A DNA stretch of 64,000 nucleotides from Maribacter sp. (lineage in GTDB: Bacteria; Bacteroidota; Bacteroidia; Flavobacteriales; Flavobacteriaceae), in contig NZ_JADGES010000003.1 of the NCBI RefSeq assembly GCF_016744255.1, positions 41,513 through 105,512 on the forward strand, in the 5' to 3' direction. Shown here one piece after another: positions 29,703 through 58,536 of this stretch. A program made the translations under genes and the position numbers. Position 1 is the first letter of the stretch. Each line of letters starts with the position of its first letter. The notes beneath the pieces are model-generated. The model was not told the origin of the DNA and made no database searches. It worked only from the letters and a program-made list of their open reading frames with translations.

Positions 29703-29703
29703 A

Positions 29704-30743: not shown

Positions 30744-30781
30744 ATATTTAATCTAGAGTGAATTTACTATATTCGTTCTCT

Positions 30782-35349: not shown

Positions 35350-35469
35350 GTAGAGCCGTTTTTATTCTATATACAAATCACTTTAAAAAACATTATTACA
35401 TTTTGTATTTTAAAGATTTTTAACATTGTATTACAAGTAGCAAGTTCCTCCTTAAATATGAAAACACAA

Positions 35470-35495
35470 GGGGGGAAAATGCTCAATCAAGAGGG
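35470..35495 (-). promoter_or_regulatory. Shared PUL motif copy A (GGGGGGaAAATgcTCAAtcaAGAGGG) upstream of dctP
   Basis: 20/26 identical to copy B at 58287-58312. Confidence 0.5.
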
Positions 35496-35523
35496 GGCAA
35501 ATTAACACTAAACACCTACTTAT

Positions 35524-37701
35524 TTAATCCTTAATGATGTGAATATCGTTTTCTAATTTGCTTTTTTCAATTAAAACTACCTCTCCACTTACAAATTGGT
35601 TATTTACTTTTAAAAAATGCGCTGCTGGTACGGATGAGTTATGAACTACTAGTAGTGTATATTCTTTTTCATCGATAGTAATTGTTATCGCCTCTGCATC
35701 TTCATCTTTTAACACCACATTATTTCTGGTATAAACTAGTGTTTTTTTAAAACTGAGTTTTGTTTCTTCGGGGAAATACAAAAGAGAAATAAATGAAGTA
35801 GAGCCTTCTACCTTTTTAAATAGTTCGGCTTTTTTATTCTCTTTTTTTAAATTATACTCTGGTGACCACCAAGAGTCGGTTAATTTAATATCAACATCAT
35901 TAATTGGCTGTATTCTTAAATTTTTTTTATCATACGTGGTTACTAATCCATCATTTTCTATTTTAACCTTCTTATTAGGGTAATTAAAATATTGCGAATA
36001 TTTATGGCTACCATTTGATGAAAAACTATCGAAAACCAACCATATATTGGGCTTTAAAAACAATAATCTTCGTTTCATAGAAACAGGATGTTCTAATCTT
36101 TTATAGGCCGTATTTTCTGCCTCTGCATAATCATACGTTTTTGTAGATTCTGTAAATATGGCATTAGACCGTGCTTCAAAAGTGTTAGTCCAAGAATCTT
36201 TATATACCGTATTGGGCATATCATCTACCCCTAATGTATTATGACTTATGTTACTTTTAAAAAATTCTCGCCATTTATCATCCACATAAGAGTAACGGCC
36301 TCCATCAATTAAATAATCTCTATTATTAGCAAAAATGGTAAAATGCAACAAGTTATCGTGCCCATGTCCACAGCCTAACTTTTTTAAATGAAAACTTGTA
36401 TATGTTGCATCTTGCTCCCATGAAGTTCGCATATAAAAATCGCCAGAACTTTGCTGGTATGTACTTAAAAAACTAGGCGATTCTGAAGTCATATTATTAT
36501 AGATATCCTTATTTTTTATACCTGTTATGAATAAAGTTTCATAATCTAGTTGTTCAAAAGCTCTAGATTTTAAAACCGAATCATTGTATAATGAAGAAGC
36601 AAGTGTTAACAATCCTCTTAAATCTGTATCATCACTATCTCCCAATAACGGCTGATGATAATTAGGTTTCTGCCATTTTACATTGGCATATGCCATATCT
36701 TTAGTTTTCTGAATAATAATTTCTGGAAGCTTAATATTCTTCCGTTGCGCTAATAAATTAACATTCATATAGCAATGAAACACCTCATTATGGTACATAG
36801 GAGATTGCTCCCACTGTGTTCCGTCTGGTAAAATTTGCAACTTAACACAGGTAGTTAATTTATCTAAAGCTTCTTTTTGCCACTGTTTGGCTACTTTAAA
36901 TTCTGTTAAAAAATGAGCCACATTAAATAATCCATGAAACTCTAGAACTCCCCAATTACTGGTTTGCGAGAAATTATTAAACGAACTGTTTATATATTCT
37001 CCATGCTCATATAATGAGGTTAAGAATTTTTCTAGAAATTCAGGAGTTACGTGTTTAGAATTTTTAATATACTCAAAAGCTTTTATCCAGTTTTCGCACC
37101 GAATGCCCGCTTCGATTCTCCGCCATGTAAAGTGCTTTAAATCGTCTTTTAATGGATTGCTATCTATCCAATGCGTTACTTGTTTTACGAATTTTTTAGC
37201 ATATTTTTCGTTTCTAGTGAGCAAATAGGCTCTTCCTAAATCAATCCAAAACTTATGCCTATTTAACATATAACACCATTCTTCATCCCCGTTTGGTATT
37301 ACAGTCCAATCTATTTCTCCTTTAAATTGATATGGAATATTTGTTTTTTCCATATCCCAATCATCTCGAAATAGAAAATACTGATTTAGAACATCATTTG
37401 CCACTTTCATGGTTTTCCTAACATTTTCTGGATATTCTTTTTTAATAAAAACAACATCATTTTCATTAACCTGTAAATACAAATTATCTTTTTCTCTATA
37501 AATAGTAAGCAAGTCTTTTAATGCTTGATCCTTTTGATTACTTTTTATAGATTTCTCTACTGATTTTAATAAATCTTCATTAAAATTGAGCTTATTAAAA
37601 ATACCCTGGTCTTTATTTTGAGCAAAACTTCCGCAAATAAACATTACTAAAAGTAGAAAAGTACTTGCCTTGCTATATGCTAACTTCATTTTTAAATTCA
37701 T
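35524..37701 (-). CDS. Heparinase II/III-like polysaccharide lyase, secreted
   Basis: Signal peptide; helical N-domain (WRRIEAGIRCENWIKAFEYI, LPDGTQWEQSPMYHNEVFHCYMNVN) and heparinase II/III C-domain (GCGHGHDNLLHFTIFANNRDYLIDGGRYSYVDDKWREFFKSNISHNTLGVD). Confidence 0.9.
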   Translation of the reverse strand: MNLKMKLAYSKASTFLLLVMFICGSFAQNKDQGIFNKLNFNEDLLKSVEKSIKSNQKDQALKDLLTIYREKDNLYLQVNENDVVFIKKEYPENVRKTMKVANDVLNQYFLFRDDWDMEKTNIPYQFKGEIDWTVIPNGDEEWCYMLNRHKFWIDLGRAYLLTRNEKYAKKFVKQVTHWIDSNPLKDDLKHFTWRRIEAGIRCENWIKAFEYIKNSKHVTPEFLEKFLTSLYEHGEYINSSFNNFSQTSNWGVLEFHGLFNVAHFLTEFKVAKQWQKEALDKLTTCVKLQILPDGTQWEQSPMYHNEVFHCYMNVNLLAQRKNIKLPEIIIQKTKDMAYANVKWQKPNYHQPLLGDSDDTDLRGLLTLASSLYNDSVLKSRAFEQLDYETLFITGIKNKDIYNNMTSESPSFLSTYQQSSGDFYMRTSWEQDATYTSFHLKKLGCGHGHDNLLHFTIFANNRDYLIDGGRYSYVDDKWREFFKSNISHNTLGVDDMPNTVYKDSWTNTFEARSNAIFTESTKTYDYAEAENTAYKRLEHPVSMKRRLLFLKPNIWLVFDSFSSNGSHKYSQYFNYPNKKVKIENDGLVTTYDKKNLRIQPINDVDIKLTDSWWSPEYNLKKENKKAELFKKVEGSTSFISLLYFPEETKLSFKKTLVYTRNNVVLKDEDAEAITITIDEKEYTLLVVHNSSVPAAHFLKVNNQFVSGEVVLIEKSKLENDIHIIKD

Positions 37702-37706
37702 ACGTG

Positions 37707-38075
37707 TTATAATTTATTCATTTTAAGGGTATAATACAGCGCTAATGGCATCATAAAATTAGCTCCACGTTCAATAAAAGACCAAATAGAATCTCCAGAT
37801 ATTGGGCGAATTAAAGCTGTTAAAAAAGCCCAAATAGCAGCCCAAATAATTATTTTATTGTAAGGTTTTAATAGTATAAATAAAGCTACAACAACATCTA
37901 AACAACCAATATATACAATCAAAGTATGAGCAGATTCTGTTGGGATATAAACAGTTTCTAAATACTTAATCCAACTGGGGTTTCCTTGAATTGCAAAAAC
38001 ACCATGGCCTAAAAAAGTCATAAAAATACCTATTCTTAAAATCCACTCTATTGTTTTTAGGTTCGGTTTTTTCAT
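37707..38075 (-). CDS. Hypothetical small membrane protein (DoxX-like)
   Basis: 122 aa, 4 TM; EWILRIGIFMTFLGHGVFAIQGNPSWIKYLE. Confidence 0.65.
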   Translation of the reverse strand: MKKPNLKTIEWILRIGIFMTFLGHGVFAIQGNPSWIKYLETVYIPTESAHTLIVYIGCLDVVVALFILLKPYNKIIIWAAIWAFLTALIRPISGDSIWSFIERGANFMMPLALYYTLKMNKL

Positions 38076-38382
38076 TTAAAATTTACTAAATTTATTCTAC
38101 TGTATAACTTCAAAATTTTGAAACATCCTGTTATTATTAACTCCAACTAATTAAAAATAACCATTTACCTAAGGTTTATCATTGTTAACTTTAGGCACCC
38201 TTTAACTTCTAAAAACCTATTACATATTATTTCTAAATAGTCTTTTCTATTTGGTTATTGTTCTAAAGTTTAGTTTTTATAATCCTTTAAAATTTTCTTA
38301 TAAATAACAGTTACTAAGGAGTAACTCTTCATCCATTTAAATAGTAAAAATTTGTAATTTAAAACAGATACATTAACGCTTT

Positions 38383-39882
38383 TTAATAAGGTTTATCAAA
38401 CAACTCGCTTGAGTTTATAGCGGTATGACTTGGCAACATGACCTTTTTTAAGAACTTGGTGTCCTTTGTTTGCTTACACCAATCGATTAATTTTCTGCGA
38501 AATTCATCTACCTTTTGTAAATGTTTCTTAGAGTTAATAAGGTTATTCATTTCATACGGGTCGTATTCCAAATCAAAAAATTGCTCTCTATTTTTACCCC
38601 AATTGTAAATAACATATTTGTAGCGTTTACCAATTACAGCTCTTCCTGTAGTACCATAAGCTTGCTTACCTTCAAATTTGGTTTCAACAACTATATTATC
38701 GTGTTTTTCATAATCGCTTTTACCTTCAATAAGCGGTTTAATACTTTTTCCTAAAAGACCATCGAAAACAGGAATACCTGCATAGTCTAAAATTGTTGGG
38801 TATAAATCTAGTCCGTTAGAAATTAAAGTGGAATTTATTTTTTCTTTGGAAGTATTTTTATAATTAATGATAAAAGGCACCTTTATACTTTCCTGAAATA
38901 AGGCTGTTTTTTGATTCCAACCATGAGATGCATTACCATCTCCATGATCACTAGTAAATATAATTACCGTTTTTTCTCGTAAACCTAAACTATCAATAGC
39001 ATTAATAATTTTACCAATTTCTTTATCTACTTTTTCAACTAATCTGTAATAAGCATATCGGTATTGACGCCAATCTTCTTTGGTATAATTTTTTGTTGGA
39101 TATGTTTTTACAGAAGCATTTTGCTCTATTTGTAAAGCTTCAGGAAAAGTTTCTGATTTCATAAAATTAACTGGTAATTCTGGAGTATCGTTTAAAGGCA
39201 CTGGAGGAATATTACCATAAGGTAAAGGCTGGTTTCTTGCCCATTCACAAATGTTATGAGGGTTATCAAAAGATGTTACCAAGAAGAAAGGTTGTCTTTT
39301 GCCTTGTCTAGATTTTAAATAGTTAATCGATTTTTCTGCTAGTGGAATATCTCCAAAATCAGCTATTTTCTCAAAACCATTACCTTCTACAATAGCGGCT
39401 TCATGAGCATGCCATTTTCCGCCATAAGCACAATCATAGCCAGCATTCTTTAAAACATTTCCTAGGCCTAGCTTTTTATCTTGAGGCTGCATAACATTAT
39501 CCCCTTTTTCATTAGAATTTACATCTAAAGTATGCGACATTTTACCTGTAAACATGCTAGATCGGGAAGGTGTACACAACGGAAATGTTACATAGGCGTT
39601 TTTAAAACGTATTCCTGTTTTTGCTAGCTTGTCTAAATTTGGTGTATTTACATTTAAGTTCCCTGCAATACTTAAAGCTTCGGCTTGGTGTTGGTCCGTA
39701 ACAATCAAAACTATATTTGGTTGGTTTTGATTTAAAACTACATCTTGTTCAATTGGTATTTTTTTTTCACTCTGTTTACAAGATGAAATTAGAATACCAA
39801 TTAAAAATAAAAACAATATTATTTTGCTTTGTCTAACCTTTATAGTTTTTCTCGTAGCCATTTTTTTTCTATTTTTTTCCAT
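38383..39882 (-). CDS. Sulfatase (S1 family, Cys-type), lipoprotein; real start may be ATG at 39861
   Basis: PNIVLIVTDQHQAEALS, CTPSR (C-x-P-x-R maturation motif) in FPLCTPSRSSMFTGK, IIFTSDHGD. Confidence 0.95.
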   Translation of the reverse strand: MEKNRKKMATRKTIKVRQSKIILFLFLIGILISSCKQSEKKIPIEQDVVLNQNQPNIVLIVTDQHQAEALSIAGNLNVNTPNLDKLAKTGIRFKNAYVTFPLCTPSRSSMFTGKMSHTLDVNSNEKGDNVMQPQDKKLGLGNVLKNAGYDCAYGGKWHAHEAAIVEGNGFEKIADFGDIPLAEKSINYLKSRQGKRQPFFLVTSFDNPHNICEWARNQPLPYGNIPPVPLNDTPELPVNFMKSETFPEALQIEQNASVKTYPTKNYTKEDWRQYRYAYYRLVEKVDKEIGKIINAIDSLGLREKTVIIFTSDHGDGNASHGWNQKTALFQESIKVPFIINYKNTSKEKINSTLISNGLDLYPTILDYAGIPVFDGLLGKSIKPLIEGKSDYEKHDNIVVETKFEGKQAYGTTGRAVIGKRYKYVIYNWGKNREQFFDLEYDPYEMNNLINSKKHLQKVDEFRRKLIDWCKQTKDTKFLKKVMLPSHTAINSSELFDKPY

Positions 39883-41438
39883 TCTTTTTGGCTTTTACGA
39901 ATCCAATTTGGCATTCTCCCTATCCTATATTTTAATTGTGCTTCGTACAAAGATTCTGGAAAAACTTTAGTTCCCAAACTTTCTAAATAACCAATATTAT
40001 CTTTATTAAATGTAGTTTTAGAGCCGTGTAAACCAACAATTATAGGATTTACTGCAGAAAATCCCCAATACATACCTTTGCCAGAAAGGCTCCAAAAATC
40101 ATAATCTAAAACCGTATTGCCTACCCTTTTATAATTCCAAAGTGTTAAACCTTTTAAATGGTGTGGTTCGTTTTTGTAAAACCCGCCATGAGCAGTCATT
40201 TTAGATGCTTCATACAAATCGACTAAATTGTTTTTTGGAATATCTGCATGCGAATCCCACCCTTGCTTTGGGGTTTTTACACGCCAAACTACAGAGCCCG
40301 AGGTTTTATGAGACATAGATGCTCCATGCCATTGCCCATTATTTGTAGCATCAAAAACTAAACCTGTTAACACCCTTGTTGATTGGGTTACATTGGTTAA
40401 TTTATGTCCACTATTGCCTTCTACTAATAGCATTAAAAGAGAAGAAGCGTAACTAGCATTTATTGAAACAGCGCCTGTAATGTTACTGAATCTACATCTT
40501 CTTACCCAAGAATTTGAAACGTTTTGCATAGAAATCATAGACCAGGCATTATCATGGATAAAATTTTTATGATGTATAAATTTATCCTTAAAATTTGCTT
40601 TAAAAAAAATGTCTTCTACACCCACATTTTCTATAGGATAAAAAGGCATCACTTGCCAATCATACTCTGTTTTGAGAGTATTTACCAAAGGATCTTTTAA
40701 GGTTATTTTATTACCCGAAATACTTTTTATTTCATGGTTCTCTACAAAAGTTACTCCTTTTTCTTTTATCTTTTCCCAATGCGGACGCGTATTTTTACCA
40801 CCTAAAGATTCTGAAATTGCATCTATACTAAAAGGCATTTCTAACCGAATGTATTTAGCTTTTTTAAAAATATTAGGGTTTTCTACTTCAATTACAAAAG
40901 CGCCTTCTTCTGCATTTATTGTAATATTAGTTGCAACATTTTTACTCTTATTAGAATAAAATTTAAACATATAACTTACTTTCCACTCTGGTTCATTAGG
41001 ATAGCTTTGTAACATGTGATTTTGCATATGTATCACTGTTCCGTTTCTACCTAAACCACTGCCTTTTAAAATTATATTAGAGGATTTTATTGTGATTGGG
41101 TTCGTTTTTTGGGGACTTACATTTACTAAAAATTCGCCTTTAGGAAAAAAAACAATGCCTCCATTATTTTTTTCGGCAGCATTAATTGCGGATTGTATAG
41201 CTTTTTGGTCAGAAAAAGAATCGTTTGGTATGGCTCCAAAATCTATTACATTAAAAATAGTTGCCTTTTTAAAACGTTTAGGAATTCCTTCTTCACCTAA
41301 TTTATAACCTGCATACGAATAATCGAAAAGTTTAGGAATTTTAGGATCTGAAATTTCCCCTGTAAACTTTTTCCAAATTATAGATTCTTGTGCAAAAGCA
41401 CTTGAAGCTATAAAATATAAAAGAAAAAAAATTCGCAT
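39840..41438 (-). CDS. Secreted parallel beta-helix protein (DUF4955/pectate-lyase-superfamily-like), candidate polysaccharide lyase
   Basis: Signal peptide; FNVIDFGAIPNDSFSDQKAIQSAINAAEKNNGGIVFFPKGEFLVN (pectate-lyase-superfamily N-terminus). Confidence 0.8.
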   Translation of the reverse strand: MRIFFLLYFIASSAFAQESIIWKKFTGEISDPKIPKLFDYSYAGYKLGEEGIPKRFKKATIFNVIDFGAIPNDSFSDQKAIQSAINAAEKNNGGIVFFPKGEFLVNVSPQKTNPITIKSSNIILKGSGLGRNGTVIHMQNHMLQSYPNEPEWKVSYMFKFYSNKSKNVATNITINAEEGAFVIEVENPNIFKKAKYIRLEMPFSIDAISESLGGKNTRPHWEKIKEKGVTFVENHEIKSISGNKITLKDPLVNTLKTEYDWQVMPFYPIENVGVEDIFFKANFKDKFIHHKNFIHDNAWSMISMQNVSNSWVRRCRFSNITGAVSINASYASSLLMLLVEGNSGHKLTNVTQSTRVLTGLVFDATNNGQWHGASMSHKTSGSVVWRVKTPKQGWDSHADIPKNNLVDLYEASKMTAHGGFYKNEPHHLKGLTLWNYKRVGNTVLDYDFWSLSGKGMYWGFSAVNPIIVGLHGSKTTFNKDNIGYLESLGTKVFPESLYEAQLKYRIGRMPNWIRKSQKEWKKIEKKWLREKL

Positions 41439-41474
41439 AATTATAGTAAAAAAGGTTAAAATATTTGCTAAAAA

Positions 41475-44400
41475 TTACATTTTAAACAAAGTTATTTTTT
41501 GAGAAAAGCCATCTTTAAGCTCTAAAAAAATAGTGGTTACCTCTTCTGAATTATCTACAGAAATAACTTTATCTGTTATTAAAGTTGACCATCTTCCATT
41601 CACAGTAATAGCAAATTTTAGTGGTTCACTAAAGTTTTTTAATTTTCCATTCTTGTCTTCTGGAAAGTTTAAATCTGGCTGCACAACACTTAATGTTGTT
41701 TTTTGGGTACTTTCTTCCTTAGCCATTATCAAAACTGGTTTAGAAACTGTTTTTAAAATACCTTGTTCTATATTGGTATTTGCCTCAAAAACCACATAAC
41801 CTGTGGTGTTTGTTTTTAAGTCTTTTACAATGTGAGCAATACTATCTGCTCTTAAAATAGCATAAGACGTATCCTTTTTTATTTTTTTATTAAAACTATT
41901 TATTTGCAATTCATTATTAAAAGGATAAATAACATACTGGTAACCTTCATTTTTAGGGGCTAGTCCGTGATTAATCCACGCAGAAGCATAATTACCTTCG
42001 GTTTCCTTTACTCCTTTCCCTTTACGGTTCATTTTACCCGTATTTATAGAGTATTTATTATGATACGAACTTTGTTTTTCTTTCTTAAAGTTAACGGCAT
42101 GGTTAGATAAAATATGGTATCCATTTCCATAGGGGTCTATTAACCAATTCTCTGCTTTTGTATTTTTAGGCAACTGCCCTTCAAAAGGAAATTTTGTAAT
42201 TTTTTTATCTGAAGTATAAATAGGATTTTTTTTATCTGTTAAAAACGTTTGAAACAAATTAGTCTGTGTAAGGTTTTTATCATCTACGCTAGATATATCT
42301 GTACCAATACATATAATCTTATCCCCAAATGAAAACACCGTTTTTTTTGCTTTTAACCTTCCAGGAAAACCCAATTGCTTGTTAGGTGGCTCTGCATTAA
42401 TACCTTTTTCCTCATTCAATATCATTCCAAAAACACCATTCCCATCTAATTTAACTGCCCCGGCAAATGTTTCATTAGACCTAAACATGAGTAAAGGCGA
42501 ATTAGGCTCTAACTCTTTAAAAGGTAAATAGATAATGGTTGCCCCTGGGTAACGATTCCAGTCCCATCCTTCTTGGTGAAACCCGCTACTCTTTTCTCCT
42601 TTACTATTTAATAATTGAACCGTTCCGTTAGCTGGGTATCTACCATACCTGTTTGAAGCTACATAAATTTCTGATGCCCAAACATATCTACTATACCCTT
42701 TAATTATAGCTGCCCAATCATTCTGTCTATATATAGCGGTAGCTGCATAAGGCATTGTATGGTAACCTCTTAAAATTTCTTTCTGAACACCATCTTCTGT
42801 AAAAACAAACGTATTGACAATATCATCTTTACCCCAAAGACGTAAATAGGCTGCCGCAACTTCTTTATCTATTTTTGAGGTTCCTTCTGGGTTTCCAGAA
42901 TATGCCATTAATAAGTATTGATTTTTTAAAGATGCTATTGAACTTGTACCATCTAATGGGTGTCTGCCTGCATTACCAAAACCCCAATCGTATAATTGAC
43001 TATAAGTACGTGTAGCTAAAAATGCTTTTTTAAAATTTCTATGTCCATCTGTACTTATACGAAATTTTGTGTCTGATAAGGCCCTTATAACTTTTGGAAC
43101 TTTTTTAAATGCGCCCATACCATATGCCGGATAATGACCATTATGGTGCCATGAAGTACCGTCTGCTTTAAACCCCCATTCTTCTTTCTGTTGTGCTAAA
43201 ATAATAGACGTATATTTAGAATATGCTCTTAATAAAGCTGCTTGCTTTTCTTGACTATCTAATAAAAAAATAAGCATTAAATGGTAGTACGATTGTGTAT
43301 TTAAATAATCAATATTTACATGGAACTCTTTTTCGTTATCTAAAACCATTCCTAGATTAAATAACCAATGTAAACTCGATCCTACATCATTCAACAAACC
43401 TTCTTTATGTAATAATTGGCGCATTATAAAAAAGGCTTCGGTAATTTCTCCAACACCATAACCAATATGATGTCTTGTGCCTCCAGATGCACCAGCTTGC
43501 CACCCTTGATCTAAAAAATACCCTGCGCCTGTAATAAACATCTTTTCAATTTCTTGCCTTTCTAAATCATTGGCTTTGCCATGAAAACTGGCAATTTTTT
43601 TCATCACTTTCCCTAAGTCGTGTATATCATTAAACTTATTGGGACCTTGTTGTTTTACATTAAAATATTCCTGTTCAGCTTTAAAAGTTAATGGTGGCCC
43701 TAATACCGTTTTTCCTACATTATTAATATTTAGACTTTGGAATAATTCTTTTAGAGTATTCATATAAACCCCGCCCTTTTTGGCTACCGATAAATCTTGA
43801 TCTATATATTCTTCGATTTTTTTTAAATCCCCCCTTATTGGACTAGAAATAGGCTTAGCATCTATATTCTCTATACGTTCGTAATTACTAATTAAAGGCA
43901 TCCAATGATCCTCTCCCGATTGCATTTTTGATTTAATAAATGGCACCATAGTATCTGGATACTGGTGCCTATCATCTTGGTATTGAGAAAAAATAATATC
44001 ATCAAAAAATAGGGTTCCACTATTAGTATTAGTACTTACTCTAAAATAATCGTAACTAATGGCTGCTCCTTTTTTTGGCTTGTTACCTTGCATTTCATAA
44101 AAAGGCACCCAGATACGCCTCCATCCTTTAAAAGACAGCTCTAGATTAAACCAAACTTCTTTAACACCTTCTTTTTCAAAAGAAATAGTTATTGTTCCTT
44201 CTTGAGGGGTTTCATTATATAATGATATTGCTAAAGTGGGAGATGCAGGAAAATAATCTCCATATGCCAATGGGCTTTCATCATGGTTTAAAATTCTAAA
44301 ATTTGATGTTCCAAAATTACTTTGTCCACTCCAACTCCACTGCAAGGATTTTTTTCCAAATTTAAAATGAGCTGAACTTGTAGACAAACTACTATTAGAA

Positions 44401-44534
44401 GCTTTATACTCGCTTAAAACAGTCTCTTTTTCAAAGGATTCTACAGAAGGTTTTTTGCTTTCTTGCGAATAACCAAAGTATACTACTAAGAATGCTAAAA
44501 ATGTAGATACTATTGTTTTATTGAATAGATTCAT
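41475..44534 (-). CDS. Polysaccharide lyase family 8, chondroitin sulfate ABC lyase-like
   Basis: 1019 aa; N-terminal jelly-roll (SWSGQSNFGTSNFRILNHDE), catalytic region GASGGTRHHIGYGVGEITEAFFIM and DGTSWHHNGHYPAYGMGAF. Confidence 0.92.
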   Translation of the reverse strand: MNLFNKTIVSTFLAFLVVYFGYSQESKKPSVESFEKETVLSEYKASNSSLSTSSAHFKFGKKSLQWSWSGQSNFGTSNFRILNHDESPLAYGDYFPASPTLAISLYNETPQEGTITISFEKEGVKEVWFNLELSFKGWRRIWVPFYEMQGNKPKKGAAISYDYFRVSTNTNSGTLFFDDIIFSQYQDDRHQYPDTMVPFIKSKMQSGEDHWMPLISNYERIENIDAKPISSPIRGDLKKIEEYIDQDLSVAKKGGVYMNTLKELFQSLNINNVGKTVLGPPLTFKAEQEYFNVKQQGPNKFNDIHDLGKVMKKIASFHGKANDLERQEIEKMFITGAGYFLDQGWQAGASGGTRHHIGYGVGEITEAFFIMRQLLHKEGLLNDVGSSLHWLFNLGMVLDNEKEFHVNIDYLNTQSYYHLMLIFLLDSQEKQAALLRAYSKYTSIILAQQKEEWGFKADGTSWHHNGHYPAYGMGAFKKVPKVIRALSDTKFRISTDGHRNFKKAFLATRTYSQLYDWGFGNAGRHPLDGTSSIASLKNQYLLMAYSGNPEGTSKIDKEVAAAYLRLWGKDDIVNTFVFTEDGVQKEILRGYHTMPYAATAIYRQNDWAAIIKGYSRYVWASEIYVASNRYGRYPANGTVQLLNSKGEKSSGFHQEGWDWNRYPGATIIYLPFKELEPNSPLLMFRSNETFAGAVKLDGNGVFGMILNEEKGINAEPPNKQLGFPGRLKAKKTVFSFGDKIICIGTDISSVDDKNLTQTNLFQTFLTDKKNPIYTSDKKITKFPFEGQLPKNTKAENWLIDPYGNGYHILSNHAVNFKKEKQSSYHNKYSINTGKMNRKGKGVKETEGNYASAWINHGLAPKNEGYQYVIYPFNNELQINSFNKKIKKDTSYAILRADSIAHIVKDLKTNTTGYVVFEANTNIEQGILKTVSKPVLIMAKEESTQKTTLSVVQPDLNFPEDKNGKLKNFSEPLKFAITVNGRWSTLITDKVISVDNSEEVTTIFLELKDGFSQKITLFKM

Positions 44535-44599
44535 AAGTACCTCTTTATAATTAAAATATTTATTTTAAATAATGAGTAAGACAAATTTAATGCCCTTAT

Positions 44600-47242: not shown

Positions 47243-47252
47243 TATGAGAGCA

Positions 47253-48782: not shown

Positions 48783-48789
48783 TTAAGGC

Positions 48790-50052
48790 TTATTTTTTCG
48801 TCTGTAATTTTTTTAATCTAGATAAGGCTTCAATATAATAGTAATCTGCGTAAATTAAAGCAACATCTATTTCGTGTCCTAAAGATTTAGCTCCTGTTGA
48901 GTGTAATAAAAATGAATCTGCTTTACCAACTGCAGAATACTTATCTGACCCTAAAGATTTTAGCATATTTACTGCTGCATTATAATACCGCTTTTGATCT
49001 TCTTTATCTTCTACTAACGTGCTTAAATCTAACAATGCAGAAGCCACAATTGCTGCGGCAGAGGCATCTTTTTCTTCTTTTGGGTCATTTTGAACATCAA
49101 AATCCCAACAAGGCACCATATCTTCTGGAAGCAAGGACAGATATTTATTTGCTATTTTTTCAGCAAAATCTAAGAACTTTTTATCTTTGGTTTGCTTATA
49201 CACCATAGTATAACCATAAACGCCCCAAGCCTGTCCTCTAGACCATCTACTATTATCTGCATAACCTTGTTTTGTGTGTTTATTTAATACTTTACCAGAA
49301 ATAGAATCGTATTCTAAAACATGCCAAGAGGTTAAATCCTCTCTAAAATGATTTTTCATTGTAGTTTCAGCATGTTTTACTGCTATATCATAATGCGTAG
49401 AATCACCACCGTTTTTAGCGGACCAAAACAGTAATTCTAAATTTAACATATTATCTATAATGGTAAGATGTTGTTTCCAACGTGGATGCATTTTTACTGA
49501 CCATGATTTTATAGTACCTACTTTTGGATTAAATCTTGTTGCTAAAGAGGCTGCTGATGTTAACAAAATATCCTTATACTCTTTTTTACCCCCAATTTTA
49601 TATCCATTGCCATAAGCAGGAAACATCATAAAACCAATATCGTGGTGCTCGGTAATGTTTTTAAAGTCCTCGAATACTTCGGTACGTTTAATAGCTTCAT
49701 TTTTCCATTTTTCATTATTTGTAACATCGTACATGTACCATAAAATTCCTGGATAAAAACCAGAAGTCCACACCAGTTTATTATTAGAAACCTCTTTCCA
49801 TTCTGTCTGGTTTTTCTCAATTAAACGAGGATGCTTTGTTAAATCTGTGAGTTTAGATGACGAGGTAGTTAATTGCATTTCACAATTCTCAATTTCTTTA
49901 TTTAAATTGAAACTACTTTTTACATTAACCTCCCTATCGGTTTTTACTAATTGATCTTGGTTTTTATTGTCCTTACAACTTACGATACAAGTAAGAATAC
50001 ATAATAATATCAAAGTCAAAAAGACTTTATATCTTGGGTTAATTAATTTCAT
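48790..50052 (-). CDS. GH88 unsaturated glucuronyl hydrolase, lipoprotein
   Basis: WTSGFYPGILWYMYDVT, HDIGFMMFPAYGNGYK, TKQGYADNSRWSRGQAWGVYGYTMVYKQT. Confidence 0.95.
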   Translation of the reverse strand: MKLINPRYKVFLTLILLCILTCIVSCKDNKNQDQLVKTDREVNVKSSFNLNKEIENCEMQLTTSSSKLTDLTKHPRLIEKNQTEWKEVSNNKLVWTSGFYPGILWYMYDVTNNEKWKNEAIKRTEVFEDFKNITEHHDIGFMMFPAYGNGYKIGGKKEYKDILLTSAASLATRFNPKVGTIKSWSVKMHPRWKQHLTIIDNMLNLELLFWSAKNGGDSTHYDIAVKHAETTMKNHFREDLTSWHVLEYDSISGKVLNKHTKQGYADNSRWSRGQAWGVYGYTMVYKQTKDKKFLDFAEKIANKYLSLLPEDMVPCWDFDVQNDPKEEKDASAAAIVASALLDLSTLVEDKEDQKRYYNAAVNMLKSLGSDKYSAVGKADSFLLHSTGAKSLGHEIDVALIYADYYYIEALSRLKKLQTKK

Positions 50053-50311
50053 AAAAAAAATTTATTTATAGTTGCCGTAATTTAGATAGCTAAATTAGAT
50101 ATGCTTCTTTAAAAAGAAGGAGGTGTAAGCGTTCATAGCACAGGTGTATATTGATCAATTAAACTATTATTCTTTAATTTTCGGAGAAAGCATTTTAATT
50201 TTGCACAAGTAACTTATAGAACAAAAAGACTTAAAGGCATAAACGTTTATTAGTTTTTTATTTACTACTCTATAAAAGCATAATTGATTTTATCTTATAA
50301 AGTCTACATTA

Positions 50312-53300
50312 TTACTCCTTAAAAAGATAGTAATAATGCGTATCATTATTATTAACCACTAATACAACTTTACCTTGGTTTGTATTTACTATTGCCATAT
50401 TCCTAACATCATTGCTTGCAAAAAAACCATGTTCTCTATTAGGAATAAATTGAAAATTCCCTGTGTTATCTCCTTTTAAAAATGAACCAATCCCGGCATC
50501 TGACCTAGTGGTTTCAATTTCTGATTGATAATTATTCCCCGCCAATAAAATATCTTTATTATTATCCTCATCAAAATCTTCAAACAATATACTATTGATT
50601 GGTGATTGTTGCACCTCATTTGAAAAAGGAGAGAAAGTAAATTCATTATATTGATCTTGAAAAAAAATTCCCGACCTAAATTCTACTGCCATAAAATGTA
50701 ATGCCTTATCTAAATTACTACCAACAATTCCTTTAATATCTCTGTTAGCAAAATCTGTATATGTAGGTACAATTTCGTTTAGAACTGGTATTTGTTCTGC
50801 TGTACATTGTTTACCTCTTACAAGCACTTGTTTATCTTTATAATATTTAGCCAGCATAATATCAGCGACTCCGTTATGATCAAAATCGGAAGTATACACA
50901 TGAAAAGGTTTCTCTTTAGAAGCGTGGAATTTATAATTCAACCCTAAATTACCAGCAATAATATCCTTATCGCCATCGCCATCGACATCAGCAACCAGTA
51001 ATTTATTCCACCAACCTGTGGCTTTAGATAGGTTATTATATTTTTTTGATCTTAATAATTTACCAGATATATTTTCAAAGACCTCTATACCTAACCATTC
51101 GCCTGTAATTATTAAATCTAGATCCTCATCTTTATCGATATCATTCCAAATAGCATCCGTTATCATTCCTATTTTCTCTAATTGAGGAGCTTTATTTTTT
51201 GTCTCTATAGAAAACTTACCGTCATTATTAACTAATAAATAACTTATTGGAGCATATGGGTATAAGCCTGGAATTACTCTACTTCCTACAAAAAGGTCTA
51301 AATCTCCGTCCTTATCGAAATCTGCGGAGACAACCACAGATCCTGCTGAATTTATTATAGGCAATGCATCATACGATTTTGTAAATTCCCCTTTTCCGTT
51401 ATTAAAATAAAGACGGTCTTGCAATGGTTGTGTATTAACACCAAACTCATAACTTCCACTTACTACATAAAGGTCTAAATCTCCATCATTATCAGCGTCA
51501 AAAAAAGAAGCACTTACATCTTCATGGTTTTTATCTGTAATAAACGCTTTGGTTGTTATTTTTTGGAATTTTCCAGAGGTTTCCCCCAATAACAACTTAC
51601 CCGCCATAGTATATGCTCCTCCCAAATACACATCATCGATACCGTCATTATTAACATCAGCCACAGCAAGTGCTGGACCTGTTTGAGACAATTTATGTGG
51701 TAATAGTAGTTGCTTTTTAAAATCGTCATATACTGGGTCTTCATGCGAAACATTCCATTTTTCTTTAATAAAAATTGCTTGTTTATTTTCTGATTTTTCT
51801 TGTGTAATTTTTGCATTTCTATACGCCACTTCAAGCAATTGATTTGACTTTACATGAAACAATTGTTGTGTTTTACCATCGGGCCAAGTAATCTTTATTT
51901 CGGGAATTACATTTTCTTTACCTAAACCAAAATGTAGTTTATTTGACACGGAAGATAAATACCCTCTAGACTTTACTAGTTCTCGTGTAAGAATTTTTTT
52001 TTGATTAAAAATTAGTTCCGCTTTAGCACCAACTCCTGACACATTTTCTTTTAATCCAGAAAATTGAATTTGAATATAATTTCCGCTACCTATTTCTCTA
52101 GCTTTATTTTTAAGTATTGTTGCCTCTTCATTCAAGTTATTTACAACCATATCCAAATCACCATCATTATCTAAATCTGCATAAACTGCTCCATTAGAAA
52201 ATGTTGGTTTTTGTTTTATCCAATGGTTAGATTCATTACTAAATGTTCTGTCTCCTTTATTTTTAAAAAAATAGTTTGGCAATTTTTGCTGTGGAAGCAT
52301 TTGCGTAAACTTTAAGAGGTCCTTGTCTGTAGGCTTACTTTTGCTACTTCTTATTATACTCTTTATTTCATTGGTTTTATCTTGATCAATAACATCTCTA
52401 TACACACCATTGGTAATATATATATCATTATACCCATCTAAATCAAAATCTGCCATCAAAACAGACCAACTCCAATCTGTATTAGCAACGCCAGCTGCTT
52501 GAGCAATTTCACTATAGGTTCCGTTTCCATTATTTACCTGCAACATATTATGCATATACTGGTAATGGTACTCTTTTTCTACCATCGTTTTAAACTTACT
52601 TATAGAGGTCATTGCCATGGTTGTTTTTGACCTTACATAGTCTTCAGGACTCATGTCTAATGTCATTAAATCCATTAAACCATCATTATCAATATCGGCA
52701 ATATCTCCTCCCATGCTATAAAAAGACATGTGTTTAAATAATTGATTTCTACTCTCAGAAAAGGTACCATCTCTATTATTAACATAAGTAAAATCTGGCA
52801 TTTCAAAATCATTACTCACATAAATATCTGGCCATCCATCGTTATTTAAATCCCCTATTTGGGCATTTAAGCCGAAAGCTCTATCTGGCAATATCCCAGA
52901 CTCAATAGACACATCAATAAACTTTCCATTTCCGTTGTTTTTATACAATTTATCGCTTCCTTTTAAAGCAATCGTTTTTGGATCCTCTTGAATTGTTTTT
53001 AAGTTTTTAATCTCACGATAATCTCTTGTTATTACAGGACTGTTTGCTATATACAAATCTAAATAACCATCTTTATTAAAATCAAAAAATGTTGCTGCTG
53101 TTGATCTATTGGCATCTGCTAATCCAAATTCTTCTGCTTTCTCTGTAAAAGTTAAATTTCTATTATTAATATAAAGTTGATTTACTAGCCGTTGGTCATC
53201 AAACTTCCCGGCTCGGCATATATAAATATCTGGAAAACCATCGTTATTTATATCCACAATCGAAACACTAGAATTAAAACCATCATTTTTTTTGAAACCT

Positions 53301-53623
53301 GCTTTTTTAGTAATATTTGTAAACTTTAAATTACCTTCATTTATATAAAGTTCATTCGATTTTAGGTTTGAAGTAAAAAACAAATCGATAAGTCCATCCC
53401 TATTAAAATCAGCAGCGGCTACTCCACCTCCGTTATAGGAATAGATATATTTATAATAATGAAAATCTTCTGACTCTACCAGTTCATTTGAAAAATGTAC
53501 ACCGGAATATTCAGATGATATTGATTCAAATAAGTTAGTTCCTGTAGCTACTAGAGGGGCATTTTTTTTACATGATGTAATAAATGCGCCAAGAAATACG
53601 AAAATAAAGGTTATTTTTCTCAT
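50312..53623 (-). CDS. FG-GAP/VCBS repeat protein with ASPIC/UnbV domain, lipoprotein
   Basis: Repeated DxDxDGxxDxxxxx motifs (DADNDGDLDLYVVSG, DFDKDGDLDLFVGS, DVDGDGDKDIIAGN), ASPIC/UnbV segment (VSGVGAKAELIFNQKKILTRELVKSRGYLSSVSNKLHFGLGKE). Confidence 0.93.
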   Translation of the reverse strand: MRKITFIFVFLGAFITSCKKNAPLVATGTNLFESISSEYSGVHFSNELVESEDFHYYKYIYSYNGGGVAAADFNRDGLIDLFFTSNLKSNELYINEGNLKFTNITKKAGFKKNDGFNSSVSIVDINNDGFPDIYICRAGKFDDQRLVNQLYINNRNLTFTEKAEEFGLADANRSTAATFFDFNKDGYLDLYIANSPVITRDYREIKNLKTIQEDPKTIALKGSDKLYKNNGNGKFIDVSIESGILPDRAFGLNAQIGDLNNDGWPDIYVSNDFEMPDFTYVNNRDGTFSESRNQLFKHMSFYSMGGDIADIDNDGLMDLMTLDMSPEDYVRSKTTMAMTSISKFKTMVEKEYHYQYMHNMLQVNNGNGTYSEIAQAAGVANTDWSWSVLMADFDLDGYNDIYITNGVYRDVIDQDKTNEIKSIIRSSKSKPTDKDLLKFTQMLPQQKLPNYFFKNKGDRTFSNESNHWIKQKPTFSNGAVYADLDNDGDLDMVVNNLNEEATILKNKAREIGSGNYIQIQFSGLKENVSGVGAKAELIFNQKKILTRELVKSRGYLSSVSNKLHFGLGKENVIPEIKITWPDGKTQQLFHVKSNQLLEVAYRNAKITQEKSENKQAIFIKEKWNVSHEDPVYDDFKKQLLLPHKLSQTGPALAVADVNNDGIDDVYLGGAYTMAGKLLLGETSGKFQKITTKAFITDKNHEDVSASFFDADNDGDLDLYVVSGSYEFGVNTQPLQDRLYFNNGKGEFTKSYDALPIINSAGSVVVSADFDKDGDLDLFVGSRVIPGLYPYAPISYLLVNNDGKFSIETKNKAPQLEKIGMITDAIWNDIDKDEDLDLIITGEWLGIEVFENISGKLLRSKKYNNLSKATGWWNKLLVADVDGDGDKDIIAGNLGLNYKFHASKEKPFHVYTSDFDHNGVADIMLAKYYKDKQVLVRGKQCTAEQIPVLNEIVPTYTDFANRDIKGIVGSNLDKALHFMAVEFRSGIFFQDQYNEFTFSPFSNEVQQSPINSILFEDFDEDNNKDILLAGNNYQSEIETTRSDAGIGSFLKGDNTGNFQFIPNREHGFFASNDVRNMAIVNTNQGKVVLVVNNNDTHYYYLFKE

Positions 53624-53666
53624 TTTATAAAAATGATATTAATAGGAAAATATTAATTATTAAAAG

Positions 53667-53697
53667 AAAAACCCTATGGTATGTCCATAAGGTTTTT
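53667..53697 (-). terminator. Terminator/attenuator between susD and the FG-GAP gene
   Basis: AAAAACCcTATGG-TATGT-CCATAaGGTTTTT hairpin with T-tract on the minus strand. Confidence 0.7.
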
Positions 53698-53726
53698 CAA
53701 CTAACTAACTCAAATATAAAACACAA

Positions 53727-55253
53727 TTAATTACTCAATTGTGGTGCTCTATCAATTTCTGACTGTGGTATTGGTGAAAAATAGTTTGCAGGAGATGTGT
53801 CTCCTTCAACAGGACCTACCAATTCATTTGTAGACCTGTTTGCTAAAGCATTTGCTACTCTTTCCATTCTAACAAGATCACCCCATCGAATAAATTCACC
53901 TGCAAGCTCCCATTTTCTTTCTGTAAATGCTAGCTCAGCCAAATCGCCTGTACTTAAATCAACATTACTATTTCCGTAAGCTCTTCTTCTAACTTTATTT
54001 AAAGCTTCCCAAGCCTCCACAGAACTGCCGCCAGATCGTCCTTCAGCCTCAGCATATATTAATAGTAAATCTGCGTACCTCATAAAATAAGTAGTCATAC
54101 TCGTTGAAGAATTACCCGTAGGAATCTCCTCTAAAAGACCTGTTACTTTTTTAAAACTTGGGTGTGCCTCATCATCAAAAATTGTCCAATTAACAATATC
54201 TCCTTTCTTATGAATACCATCACTATCATCTTTTTTTAATTTACCTTCTAAAACATAGGTAGCATCTTTTCTTGGTCCTTCTGGAAAATCTTCTAAAAAG
54301 GCTATTTCAGCAAATACCTCGTTCCAACCACCTACAGAAGATGCGTATCCTAATTTACCAGTATGCCTATTTGCGTAAGAATTACCACAATCAACACAAT
54401 GTGCTACCGCAAACACGATTTCTGAATTCAATCTGTTTTCATCTGCTATAGACCATAGTGTGTTCATATCTGGTACTAAAGCAAAACCATGTGCTCCTGC
54501 GTTATCTATAACAGTTTTAGCGCTAGAAGCTGCTAATGCATATTTACCACTATCTTTTAAAGGCCAACCCGCCCAATGAAGATACAATTTGGCCAGAAAC
54601 GCTCTAGCAGAACCACTATTAGGTCTAATTGCAGCGTTTACGCCAGGGTATTTTACAGGAAGTAAACTTTCGGCATTAAGAAAATCGGACTCAATTTGCG
54701 TGTAGATTTCACTAATTTCAGATTTACCTAAATCAGGATCTATTTCTATGGTAAGGTTTAAAGGTACTTCTCCAAAAGTTTGGGTTAAATTAAAGTAATA
54801 CAAACCTCTTAAAAAATATGCTTCTCCAATAAGAGAATTAATAGCGACTCTGTCACTCTCCTTACCTTCAAAATTATCTTTGTTTTCAATAATATTATTT
54901 ACTGATTTAATAACTTTATAAGACTCTTCCCAGGCTGTATTAATTCTGCCAGATGCTGAAGTTAAGGTTCTTCTGTCCGCTTCTCTAAAAGATATTTTAT
55001 TTTTACCACTGTGTGTCGTAAGATCATCGGCTCCGAATGAATTAATCCAAAATTGCGCCCATTTTACAGATAAACCTACTTGTTTATACGCACCAACAAC
55101 TGAAGCCTCTAGACCTTCTAAAGAAGTTAAGTTAGCAGGATCTAACCTAGCAGCAGAAACATCTTCCTCTAAATTAACACATGCAGTAAGAAACACTACA
55201 CATAGAGCGACTATAGTAATCACTCGCCTTGTTATTTTTAATTTATTTTTCAT
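53727..55253 (-). CDS. SusD/RagB-family glycan-binding lipoprotein (start MKNKLKITRR)
   Basis: Lipobox LTAC; SusD motifs (AYFLRGLYYFNLTQTFGEVPL, YFMRYADLLLIYAEA, ALNKVRRRAYG). ORF-track start is 55295. Confidence 0.95.
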   Translation of the reverse strand: MKNKLKITRRVITIVALCVVFLTACVNLEEDVSAARLDPANLTSLEGLEASVVGAYKQVGLSVKWAQFWINSFGADDLTTHSGKNKISFREADRRTLTSASGRINTAWEESYKVIKSVNNIIENKDNFEGKESDRVAINSLIGEAYFLRGLYYFNLTQTFGEVPLNLTIEIDPDLGKSEISEIYTQIESDFLNAESLLPVKYPGVNAAIRPNSGSARAFLAKLYLHWAGWPLKDSGKYALAASSAKTVIDNAGAHGFALVPDMNTLWSIADENRLNSEIVFAVAHCVDCGNSYANRHTGKLGYASSVGGWNEVFAEIAFLEDFPEGPRKDATYVLEGKLKKDDSDGIHKKGDIVNWTIFDDEAHPSFKKVTGLLEEIPTGNSSTSMTTYFMRYADLLLIYAEAEGRSGGSSVEAWEALNKVRRRAYGNSNVDLSTGDLAELAFTERKWELAGEFIRWGDLVRMERVANALANRSTNELVGPVEGDTSPANYFSPIPQSEIDRAPQLSN

Positions 55254-55272
55254 CTTTATTTTATTTTTTATA

Positions 55273-58224
55273 TTAAAACCCAATATTAATTCCAAAAGTA
55301 AATGTTCTAGGATTTGGAGATGCTCCCCAATCTATTGAAGACCCCGAATCGCTAGAAGCACTTGTTGAACTTGCTTCAGGATCATACCCTGTGTAATCTG
55401 TAATAGTGAATAGATTTTGAGCACTAGCATAAACTCTAAGGGAGTTAAAGCCTTTTACCTCTTTAATATTGTACCCTAAAGAAATGTTACTTAATCTTAA
55501 GAAACTACCGTCTTCAATAAATCTTGATGAGTTTATAAAGTTATTCCCCGTGGCAGGAATATTAGTTTCATTAGTAGGTGTCCATCTATTTCTATACTCC
55601 CCAATAGTTGCATTATTTATTGCACCTCCTGGTAAGGATACAAAAGCTCTAGAAAGATTTAACACATCGAAGCCTTGTACCATATTTATTAAGAAGTTTA
55701 AATCAAGGTTCCCGTAGGTAAGTGTGTTATTAAAACCAATAGTATAATCTGGTGTACCATTACCTGTAACACCTAAAACCAAACCATCAGTATCTTCTAG
55801 GTAACGCGCATCACCAGGGGTGCCATCTGTAGCGCCTGATTGATGTGTACCTAAAAATGTTGGCCCATAAAATTGTCCTAAAGGATCACCTACTCTAATA
55901 ATACCCATACTACCTGCTGAGTTTGAATTTTCTCCAGCTGGGTTTACAAAAATTTGAGTTTGCCCTTCCGTTAAGCTAACAACTTTGTTTTTATTTGTTG
56001 AAAAGTTAAGAGCGGAGATCCAATTAAATTTATCCGTTGAAACAACTTTAGCGTCTAAATTAAACTCGAAACCATTATTAGATACCTCTCCTATATTTCT
56101 CAAAATAGTTCCTCCTCCTTCATACGCAGGTATTGGCACTGCCAATAAAAGGTCTGTAGTATTTTTTCTATACGCATCAGCACTTAAATTTATTCTACTG
56201 TTAAAAAAAGAAAAATCTACACCAATATTGGTTTGTGTTGTTGTTTCCCAAGTTAAGTCTGGATTACCTGTAGCTCCTAGGGCTATTCCTATGCTTTCTG
56301 ACAAACCGTTAATTGGAAAATTAGCCTCGCCAGGCGAGATGGTATTCGAAGTAGAAAAAGGCGCTATAGACTGGTTTCCTGTTTCACCATAACCTCCTCT
56401 TAATTTTAACCTATTTATAAAAGAATTATCTGAAAATATATCATCTAATTGATATGCGGCAGATATTGAAGGAAATATACCTGTTTGGTTACCTGATGCA
56501 AATACAGATGATTTATCCGAACGAATTGTTGCAGTTAAGAATAATTTTCTATTGTAATTATATTCTCCTCTACCAATCCAAGACTCCATAGTACGTGGCT
56601 TAAGAATTGAGCTTATATTTGGAGTAGTACCTAATTGTATAGAGAAAAAATTAGCCGGAATGTTCATTGGTCCGCCATTTGCAGAAAACCCTCTATTTAC
56701 ATTCTTGTAAATTTCATAAATACCCGTAAGTTTTAAATTACTTTTAGTAAAGTCTTTATTCCAAGTAAGAATATTACTGTTTTGTAATGTAATATCACTT
56801 GCAAATGAACCATTAGCAGAAGGTGGCTCTACACTACTACCTGCTGGCACACCTCTATAACCCTCTGTTATTTTATTCTTATGCAACAAACCACCAACAA
56901 CGTTAAGTGTTAAATTATCAACAATTTTATATGAAAGATTAAGATTTGCATTAAAACTATTGGTTGTTACATTGACATCCGATTCGCGCCTTACAGCAAT
57001 AGGGTTTACTAACCCAACACCATTTGGAGACATTAAATTATAATTACCATTTACATTTTTAACAGGTAAAGTTGGATCCCATCCTAAAACAGCAGTTATT
57101 CCTCCTCTTACATCTGTAGATGTTCTTTCTCCATTAGCTACTAAATTATGAGAGTCTTCTATGCCCCCAAACAAGTTTAAACCAATAGATAATTTATCAT
57201 TAACCTTTGCATTTAAATTAGACCTTAATGAATATCTTTTATAATTTGTATTTATACTAACACCACTTTGATCTACACTATTTCCTGAAATAAAGTAACT
57301 AAATGTATCATCGCTACCACTTAAGGATACTTGTAAGTTATTTGTTATGCCTGTTTGAAAAAATTCTTTCTGATAGTCTGCTCCACCTTCAGTAACGGTG
57401 AGGCCATTAATAGTGGCAAATTCTTGAGAGCTTAATAAATCAATAAATTCTGGCACTTCTGAAACACTTGTAAAATAGCCCACATTAATTTTGGCTTTAC
57501 CACTACCTTTTTTAGTAGTAACTAGAATAACACCATTTGCACCTCTAGAACCATATATTGCTGTTGCCGATGCATCTTTTAAAATTTCCATTGACTGAAT
57601 ATCGTTGGTATTTATAGATTTTAATTCCCCGCCAATAATACCATCAATTACTATTAAAGGTTGATTATTACTACTGATAGAGTTAGCTCCACGAATACGT
57701 ATTTTTATATCTGCTCCAGGAGCACCAGAGTTTTTACTCACTTGCACACCAGATGCACGACCAGACAAAGCATCTTCGACCCTAAAAATGGGTTGTTTTT
57801 CAAAATCTTTAGCTCCTATACTAGAAATAGACCCTGTTAAATCACTTTTACGCTGTGTACCATAGCCTACCAAAACCACTTCGTCTAAAACATTATTTGC
57901 GTTTAGACTTACATTAATAATGGTTTGTGAGCCAACTACGATTACCTTCGTATCAAAACCTACATAAGAAATAGCAAGAGAAGCTTCTTCTGATACATCA
58001 ATAATGTAGTTACCATCAAAATCGGATACCGCCCCATTAGATGTTCCTTGTTCAATAACATTAGCCCCTGGGAGTGGCTCCCCTGATTCATCGGTAATTG
58101 TACCTTGGACTGTTTTAGCTTGAGCACTAGCAGAGTTTGTTCCCAAACCAATAAAAAAAACAATTAAGATTAGACCCAGTCTATTCTTAACTTTACATAA
58201 GAAAAAGTTAGAAAAAAATTTCAT
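55273..58224 (-). CDS. SusC/RagA TonB-dependent receptor
   Basis: 983 aa; VQGTITDESGEPLPGANVIEQGTSNGAVSDFDGNYII; plug DALSGRASGVQVSKNSGAPGADIKIRIRGANSI. Confidence 0.97.
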   Translation of the reverse strand: MKFFSNFFLCKVKNRLGLILIVFFIGLGTNSASAQAKTVQGTITDESGEPLPGANVIEQGTSNGAVSDFDGNYIIDVSEEASLAISYVGFDTKVIVVGSQTIINVSLNANNVLDEVVLVGYGTQRKSDLTGSISSIGAKDFEKQPIFRVEDALSGRASGVQVSKNSGAPGADIKIRIRGANSISSNNQPLIVIDGIIGGELKSINTNDIQSMEILKDASATAIYGSRGANGVILVTTKKGSGKAKINVGYFTSVSEVPEFIDLLSSQEFATINGLTVTEGGADYQKEFFQTGITNNLQVSLSGSDDTFSYFISGNSVDQSGVSINTNYKRYSLRSNLNAKVNDKLSIGLNLFGGIEDSHNLVANGERTSTDVRGGITAVLGWDPTLPVKNVNGNYNLMSPNGVGLVNPIAVRRESDVNVTTNSFNANLNLSYKIVDNLTLNVVGGLLHKNKITEGYRGVPAGSSVEPPSANGSFASDITLQNSNILTWNKDFTKSNLKLTGIYEIYKNVNRGFSANGGPMNIPANFFSIQLGTTPNISSILKPRTMESWIGRGEYNYNRKLFLTATIRSDKSSVFASGNQTGIFPSISAAYQLDDIFSDNSFINRLKLRGGYGETGNQSIAPFSTSNTISPGEANFPINGLSESIGIALGATGNPDLTWETTTQTNIGVDFSFFNSRINLSADAYRKNTTDLLLAVPIPAYEGGGTILRNIGEVSNNGFEFNLDAKVVSTDKFNWISALNFSTNKNKVVSLTEGQTQIFVNPAGENSNSAGSMGIIRVGDPLGQFYGPTFLGTHQSGATDGTPGDARYLEDTDGLVLGVTGNGTPDYTIGFNNTLTYGNLDLNFLINMVQGFDVLNLSRAFVSLPGGAINNATIGEYRNRWTPTNETNIPATGNNFINSSRFIEDGSFLRLSNISLGYNIKEVKGFNSLRVYASAQNLFTITDYTGYDPEASSTSASSDSGSSIDWGASPNPRTFTFGINIGF

Positions 58225-58286
58225 ATTCGTTAAAGTTTAGTTAATTATTTAGTAACAAAGATTATTATTAGTCTCTGAAAATATAG

Positions 58287-58312
58287 GGGGGTAAATATTC
58301 AAAATAGAGGGA
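58287..58312 (-). promoter_or_regulatory. Shared PUL motif copy B (GGGGGGtAAATatTCAAaatAGAGGG) upstream of susC
   Basis: 20/26 identical to copy A at 35470-35495. Confidence 0.5.
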
Positions 58313-58536
58313 TTATTTGTTCATTTCTACTGCTCTAGTCTCTATTAAGTATGAAAGCAGCCTGCAAGAACTCAGGATAGTAATCATTTTTCTATAGCTA
58401 TTAAAGAGGCTCTGGATGTGGTTTTTTTAAAAGTATAAAAATCTCCTCTTTTTTAAACACCCACTAACTTTATGCATTAAACCTTTAACTTTTAGAAACT
58501 TATATTTTTAATATAAGGAAAGCTATATAAATAATG

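Follow-up and report, generated by a model that had tools for sequence, protein, structure and literature searches.

A tandem repeat with a 22-bp period as the predicted HTCS operator of a putative chondroitin-sulfate PUL in Maribacter sp.

Four promoters of a predicted PUL in Maribacter sp. share a tandem repeat of ~40 bp, and a 26-bp motif noticed earlier at two of them is very probably part of the operator of a hybrid two-component system (HTCS) that co-activates the chondroitin-PUL promoters. The motif came from a sequence-only reading of one 64,000-nucleotide stretch of the genome (referred to here as the window), which proposed a PUL-wide operator common to the transport and degradation modules. 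At the sequence level, the four sites at the promoters of these modules agree with that proposal.

Results

Gene content and contig join

The locus looks like a chondroitin-sulfate PUL, given that it carries the genes expected of a chondroitin/dermatan sulfate PUL (i.e., a PL8 lyase, a GH88, sulfatases, SusC/D, and 5-keto-4-deoxyuronate metabolism). Its main genes are as follows (window positions unless L040 is given).

34369-35349, minus strand: dctP, TRAP solute-binding protein (Pfam DctP; NCBIfam TRAP DctP)
33902-34366: dctQ, downstream of dctP (Pfam DctQ)
32607-33902: dctM, downstream of dctQ (Pfam DctM)
41475-44534, minus strand: PL8 lyase, chondroitinase ABC I type (Pfam Lyase_N/Lyase_catalyt/Lyase_8)
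48790-50052, minus strand: GH88 unsaturated glucuronyl hydrolase, at the head of the degradation operon (solved structures)
53727-55295: SusD of the first pair, partner of the first SusC
55273-58224, minus strand: SusC/RagA transporter of the first pair (NCBIfam TIGR04056; Pfam)
61267-64000, minus strand: second SusC, truncated where contig and window end; its start and operator are on contig C153
L040 4409-8536 (contig C153): HTCS regulator of 1375 aa, directly upstream of the second susC (domain content)

The GH88 protein matched solved structures of GH88/unsaturated chondroitin disaccharide hydrolases at E values down to 1.9e-94, and the PL8 lyase matched chondroitin ABC lyase structures (E = 1.6e-105). 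The Maribacter genome is fragmented (181 contigs, 3.59 Mb). The right end of the window (63902-64000, contig C41) is identical over 99 bases, inside the second susC, to the end of contig C153 (L040 9148-9246), and this 99-mer is present genome-wide only at these two contig ends. We infer that C153 and C41 are joined here, which is backed by the same gene order in relatives. Beyond the join, genes for KduI, a KduD-like dehydrogenase, a DUF4861 (BT3233-family) protein, and a second LacI (LacI2) precede the HTCS gene. The suspicion that the regulator might be encoded outside the window agrees with the position of this HTCS on C153, across the 99-bp exact overlap with the window end.

The gene for a 1103-aa FG-GAP/ASPIC-UnbV repeat protein (50312-53623, minus strand) separates the first susCD pair from GH88; a search of 15 related loci gave no ortholog of this protein at E ≤ 1e-20 over 40% of its length.

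From two 26-mers to a tandem operator

Both 26-bp sites, 20/26 identical as first described, are present in the window: GGGGGGAAAATGCTCAATCAAGAGGG at 35470-35495, 5' of dctP, and GGGGGGTAAATATTCAAAATAGAGGG at 58286-58311, 5' of the first susC. The position originally given for the first site was exact, and that of the second (58287-58312) was off by one base; the distances to the genes were right (~120 bp for dctP and, as measured here, ~61 bp for susC). Both 26-mers match the pattern GGGGGGNAAATNNTCAANNNAGAGGG exactly, which in the gene sense reads CCCTCTnnnTTGAnnATTTnCCCCCC because dctP and susC are on the minus strand. At ≤3 mismatches, this pattern is expected by chance 0.01 times per window; the whole 3.59-Mb genome contains only the two 26-mers, and the backwards control gave 0 matches. 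Across 301 family genomes, the literal pattern found only scattered three-mismatch matches at about the background level. Thus, the literal 26-mer is not the conserved unit; as judged from the alignments below, the conserved element is a longer, more degenerate repeat that contains it.

By expectation-maximization on the HTCS-to-susC intergenic regions of nine other genera (i.e., with none of the Maribacter sites), we recovered the 40-bp motif TGAACAG.TACCCCC.GTT.AATGAACATT..ACCCCCTT. In an alignment of 51 sites of unequal strength, including the 4 Maribacter sites, the operator consists of two tandem copies of GAACA-n5-6-CCCC, spanning ~40 bp with a 22-bp period. The self-identity of the aligned sites peaks at lag 22 (0.478 versus 0.21 to 0.31 at lags more than 2 to 3 away), and the column correlation is 0.69 at lag 22 and 0.35 at lag 21; the best palindromic overlay gives 0.36. 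The 26-mer stretches from the first C block to the second and is the inner part of the operator; the sequence-only reading recognized a shared element and took a part of the ~40-bp repeat for the whole.

When the matrix from the other genera was run on the 73-kb Maribacter locus, its top four 40-mers were at the promoters of the second susC, the first susC, dctP, and GH88, all in the sense orientation; the fifth-best 40-mer scored -0.9 bits. The two or three sites counted earlier are among these four. The predicted operators and the putative -7 elements are listed below, with genome-wide E values from the profile described further on.

L040 8590-8629 (contig C153), just outside the window: operator of the second susC; best 40-mer (28.3 bits; E = 1.9e-6)
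58284-58323, minus strand: operator of the first susC-susD operon, TGAACAAATAATCCCTCTATTTT followed by GAATATTTACCCCCCTA; encloses the second 26-mer; second-best 40-mer (23.7 bits; E = 2e-3)
58256-58263, minus strand: putative -7 element of the first susC promoter, AATCTTTG; differs from TAnnTTTG at one position; offset 60 relative to the start of the operator
35468-35507, minus strand: operator of the TRAP (dctP-dctQ-dctM) operon, TGTTAATTTGCCCCCTCTTGATT followed by GAGCATTTTCCCCCCTT; two half-sites 22 bp apart; encloses the first 26-mer; third-best 40-mer (20.3 bits; E = 2.3e-4)
35440-35447, minus strand: putative -7 element of the dctP promoter, GAACTTGC; assigned by position at the conserved offset from the operator
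50118-50157, minus strand: operator of the GH88-sulfatase-phosphatase-PL8-lyase-sulfatase gene run, TGATCAATATACACCTGTGCTAT followed by GAACGCTTACACCTCCT; fourth-best 40-mer (15.4 bits; E = 1.9e-4)
50090-50097, minus strand: putative -7 element of the GH88 promoter, TAATTTAG; differs from TAnnTTTG at one position

The degenerate third site suspected near GH88 (50119-50145) lies inside the fourth of these 40-mers, which exceeds the next-best 40-mer of the locus by 16 bits, and the orthologous GH88 promoter bears an operator-like site in most relatives. The first half of the dctP operator has no good GAAC. No operator was detectable at the kduI operon or the heparinase-like gene of the Maribacter genome. 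The latter, a heparinase-like PL gene, forms a unit with the gene for an upstream 122-aa protein (35524-38075, minus strand); given that the 307-bp gap preceding this unit has no detectable operator, the unit may be controlled differently.

Spacing between the operator and the -7 box

The sequence TAnnTTTG (≤1 mismatch) occurs at exactly offset 60 in 30 of the 51 sites and in at most 4 at every other offset. These sites had been selected with the 40-bp operator alone, and the -7 box lay outside the selection. Promoters of the primary sigma factor have TAnnTTTG as their -7 consensus, with TTTG at -33 in Bacteroides fragilis (PMC7366714). The PUL promoters thus resemble primary-sigma promoters of Bacteroidota in having a -7-like box at a fixed place; instead of TTTG, however, they present the C-rich second half-site of the operator at about the -33 place. 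The dctP box, GAACTTGC, is atypical and only weakly matches TAnnTTTG; the same variant at the same offset is present in several GH88 and other promoters of relatives.

Conservation and specificity across genomes

With the PL8 lyase (chondroitinase ABC type) as the query, 18 of 400 family genomes were positive, and 15 orthologous PL8 loci (two of them from one genome) were taken for the mapping of PUL proteins. In leave-one-genome-out scans of the other loci, similar sites lay mostly 55 to 160 bp upstream of PUL genes and preceded the second susC, the first susC, GH88, and PL8. At ≥15 bits, 34 matches were found in 800 kb, versus 3 with the reversed matrix. In G211, a site precedes an operon of KDG kinase, KDPG aldolase, and dctPQM (the two enzyme names were read by eye). 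Within the genus of the Maribacter genome, dctP orthologs (49 to 70% identity) carry no operator site, and no matching PL8 lyase was found in the two genomes checked (G154 and G306); a related-locus search with the first susC returned only distant matches (24 to 28% identity).

We also searched complete genomes with a sequence-only profile of 30 sites from other genomes, a test slightly less clean than that with the nine-genera matrix because some of these sites had been found by matrices that included the Maribacter sites. The four PUL promoters were the best four matches in the Maribacter genome (E = 1.9e-6 to 2e-3; the E values of this profile are approximate, as the calibration was shortened). 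The next two matches, with E values of 0.01 and 0.067, were inside coding sequences. Over the 400 family genomes, the profile matched 16 of the 18 PL8-bearing genomes and 0 of the 382 others at E ≤ 1e-4 (Fisher p about 1e-26), where most positive genomes had contributed training sites and two, G182 and G218, had contributed none. At E ≤ 1e-3, it matched 17/18 and 7/382, respectively, and the PL8-bearing genome G014 had no match at this threshold. In G218, the profile matched a consensus site that precedes a susC oriented divergently from the PL8 region of this genome. Outside the PUL, sites in G396 and G239 precede sulfatase-like genes.

The motif is therefore not at background frequency genome-wide and is conserved in orthologous intergenic regions, the two points on which the sequence-only reading had suggested that it be checked. 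It is well supported by these comparisons that the operator is real and conserved in about fifteen other genera.

The G182 match, a strong operator-like site (L220, G182:C52, 8736-8793; E = 5e-5), lies on a contig other than that of its PL8, 53 bp upstream of a gene for a 1317-aa membrane protein; next come a gene of 450 aa and one that is permease-like.

The HTCS as the candidate regulator

The gene just 5' of the second susC encodes a protein in which Reg_prop, Y_Y_Y, HisKA, HATPase, receiver, and AraC-type HTH domains were identified. An ortholog of this HTCS is present in 15/15 orthologous loci examined (in G396, just past the stretch taken at first), and it is the only regulator found in all 15. 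A 48%-identical HTCS occurs in G001, in a locus with KduI-like, KduD-like, and sulfatase-like genes and without PL8, where C-rich tandem sites like the operator precede kduI and the gene that follows the HTCS gene. Since the loci of HTCSs at 36 to 39% identity show no convincing operator site, the motif appears to belong to this HTCS group and not to HTCSs at large.

Discussion

We propose, on the basis of co-occurrence, adjacency, and domain architecture, that the HTCS binds the operator. In the proposed scheme, a breakdown product of the chondroitin/hyaluronan type would be sensed by the membrane HTCS (i.e., a sensor kinase with a receiver and an AraC-type DNA-binding domain), leading to its phosphorylation and to DNA binding at the motif. 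With a 22-bp period, equivalent to two helical turns, an HTCS dimer would dock its two DNA-binding domains next to each other along the same face of the helix. Given the location of the second C block near -33, the bound HTCS would most likely recruit RNA polymerase as a class-II-type activator. Its predicted targets are the second susC-susD, first susC-susD, GH88/lyase/sulfatase, and TRAP promoters, and the outcome would be the joint induction of outer-membrane uptake, depolymerization, and inner-membrane uptake.

A regulator of this kind has precedents in gut Bacteroides, where 16 predicted HTCS motifs are direct repeats with an average spacing of 21 bp, which was interpreted as the binding of dimers to the same DNA face at a distance of two turns (Ravcheev et al. 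2013, PMC3878776). The Maribacter operator is likewise a tandem direct repeat of about two helical turns (lag 22 versus an average of 21 bp) that lies upstream of susC/susD and degradation operons and beside a gene for an AraC-type HTCS, in this case one with the full set of domains next to susC/susD across the 99-bp contig overlap; the motif is conserved upstream of, and specific to, orthologous PUL operons. HTCS_Hya (BT3334), which serves chondroitin sulfate and hyaluronan, shares the substrate class of the Maribacter PUL, and HTCS_Hep (BT4663) is another of the regulators with predicted operators in that study (PMC3878776); the likeness to HTCS_Hya described here is one of repeat geometry and context. 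The Bacteroides operators belong to a different family of the phylum, while the Maribacter half-site is GAACA...CCCC and the predicted Maribacter regulon includes a TRAP transporter operon. Receiver-HTH fragments of Bacteroides thetaiotaomicron HTCSs bind PUL susCD promoters in vitro (BT4124 at bt4114 and BT4663 at bt4662; PMC11253607). That study also describes an inhibitory S/CHIP-DK motif, of which the sequence SHIP and both the D and the K can be recognized by eye in the Maribacter protein. The kind of switch proposed here was therefore already predicted in gut Bacteroides, and we consider the Maribacter case a new example, well supported by sequence comparison. In a literature search, we did not find the fixed operator to -7 spacing or the inclusion of a TRAP operon described.

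The most serious competitor of the adjacent HTCS is another PUL-linked regulator that is encoded elsewhere in the genome and binds the site, with the HTCS as a mere neighbor. Co-occurrence is compatible with such a protein, and the genome encodes at least two further HTCS-like proteins; we nevertheless judge it unlikely, as no regulator but the HTCS was found in all 15 orthologous loci, and the 48%-identical HTCS is flanked by similar sites even without PL8 while loci of HTCSs at 36 to 39% identity show no convincing site. Two LacI proteins are encoded beside the PUL (LacI1, 30758-31822; LacI2, adjoining the HTCS on C153 and in many relatives), and either might own the operator. LacI operators are palindromes, however, and the element is a direct repeat (0.69 at lag 22) with weak palindromic character (0.36 at best). 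Moreover, it persists where LacI genes are missing: LacI2 was undetected in five operator-keeping loci (G116, G135, G164, G122, and G095), and LacI1, found only in G135, G396, G002, and the Maribacter genome, was undetected in most loci. We rejected LacI on these two grounds and regard its ownership of the site as quite improbable, in agreement with the initial impression that the motif did not look like a LacI operator.

Equally improbable, in our estimation, is an alternative (ECF-type) sigma factor that uses the element as its promoter without an activator; the C-rich block would then be -35-like and the AT-rich block the -10. Bacteroidota have many ECF sigma factors, and the fixed distance from the C run to the -7 box is indeed promoter-like. 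Yet a sigma factor has no need of a tandem 22-bp repeat that extends to ~60 bp upstream of the -7 box, and the downstream box resembles the primary-sigma -7 consensus of the phylum, TAnnTTTG (PMC7366714); this explanation was rejected for both reasons. A chance pair or a dispersed repeat without regulatory role had to be considered in view of the mere two copies in the window, but is hardly credible: the expected number in the window is only 0.01, the best four sites genome-wide are all PUL promoters, and the element is kept in orthologous promoters of about 15 genera, a conservation that refutes chance or a dispersed repeat in its own right. Binding by the HTCS encoded next to the second susC is thus our preferred reading.

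HTCSs are the main glycan sensors of Bacteroidota, and their known DNA sites are mostly predictions from gut Bacteroides. Our analysis adds an operator that is sharply defined by 51 aligned sites, drawn from about 15 genera other than gut Bacteroides, together with a named, predicted cognate regulator. The fixed geometry between the operator and the -7 box suggests how HTCSs may activate transcription. Tentatively, and with slightly less than even confidence, we suggest a rigid HTCS-promoter geometry in which half-sites 22 bp apart are held at a constant distance from the -7 and the proximal one replaces the -33. PUL promoters of this type would have no -33 box and would be wholly HTCS dependent for RNA polymerase recruitment (class II), possibly across Bacteroidota in general, with a switch that in Maribacter also covers the TRAP uronate transporter. 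The operator ties this transporter (along with KDG kinase and KDPG aldolase in relatives) to the regulon of the outer-membrane SusCD pairs; therefore, the profile may be used to find distal members of chondroitin regulons.

Several genes adjoin the PUL in the window, i.e., those for a nucleotidyltransferase and an APH-type kinase (28611-30615, minus strand), a fused glucosamine-6-P isomerase/PIG-L protein (26242-28170, minus strand), and LacI1 (plus strand), the last being divergent from the nucleotidyltransferase gene. In G122, a site outside the PUL precedes a nucleotidyltransferase-kinase pair that is 81% and 68% identical to the window genes at 29704-30615 and 28611-29702, respectively. 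The two genes appear to function in amino-sugar salvage, as would fit GalNAc derived from chondroitin. In G122, the pair stands by itself under an HTCS-type operator, which suggests that a GalNAc-salvage module swaps its regulator between genera.
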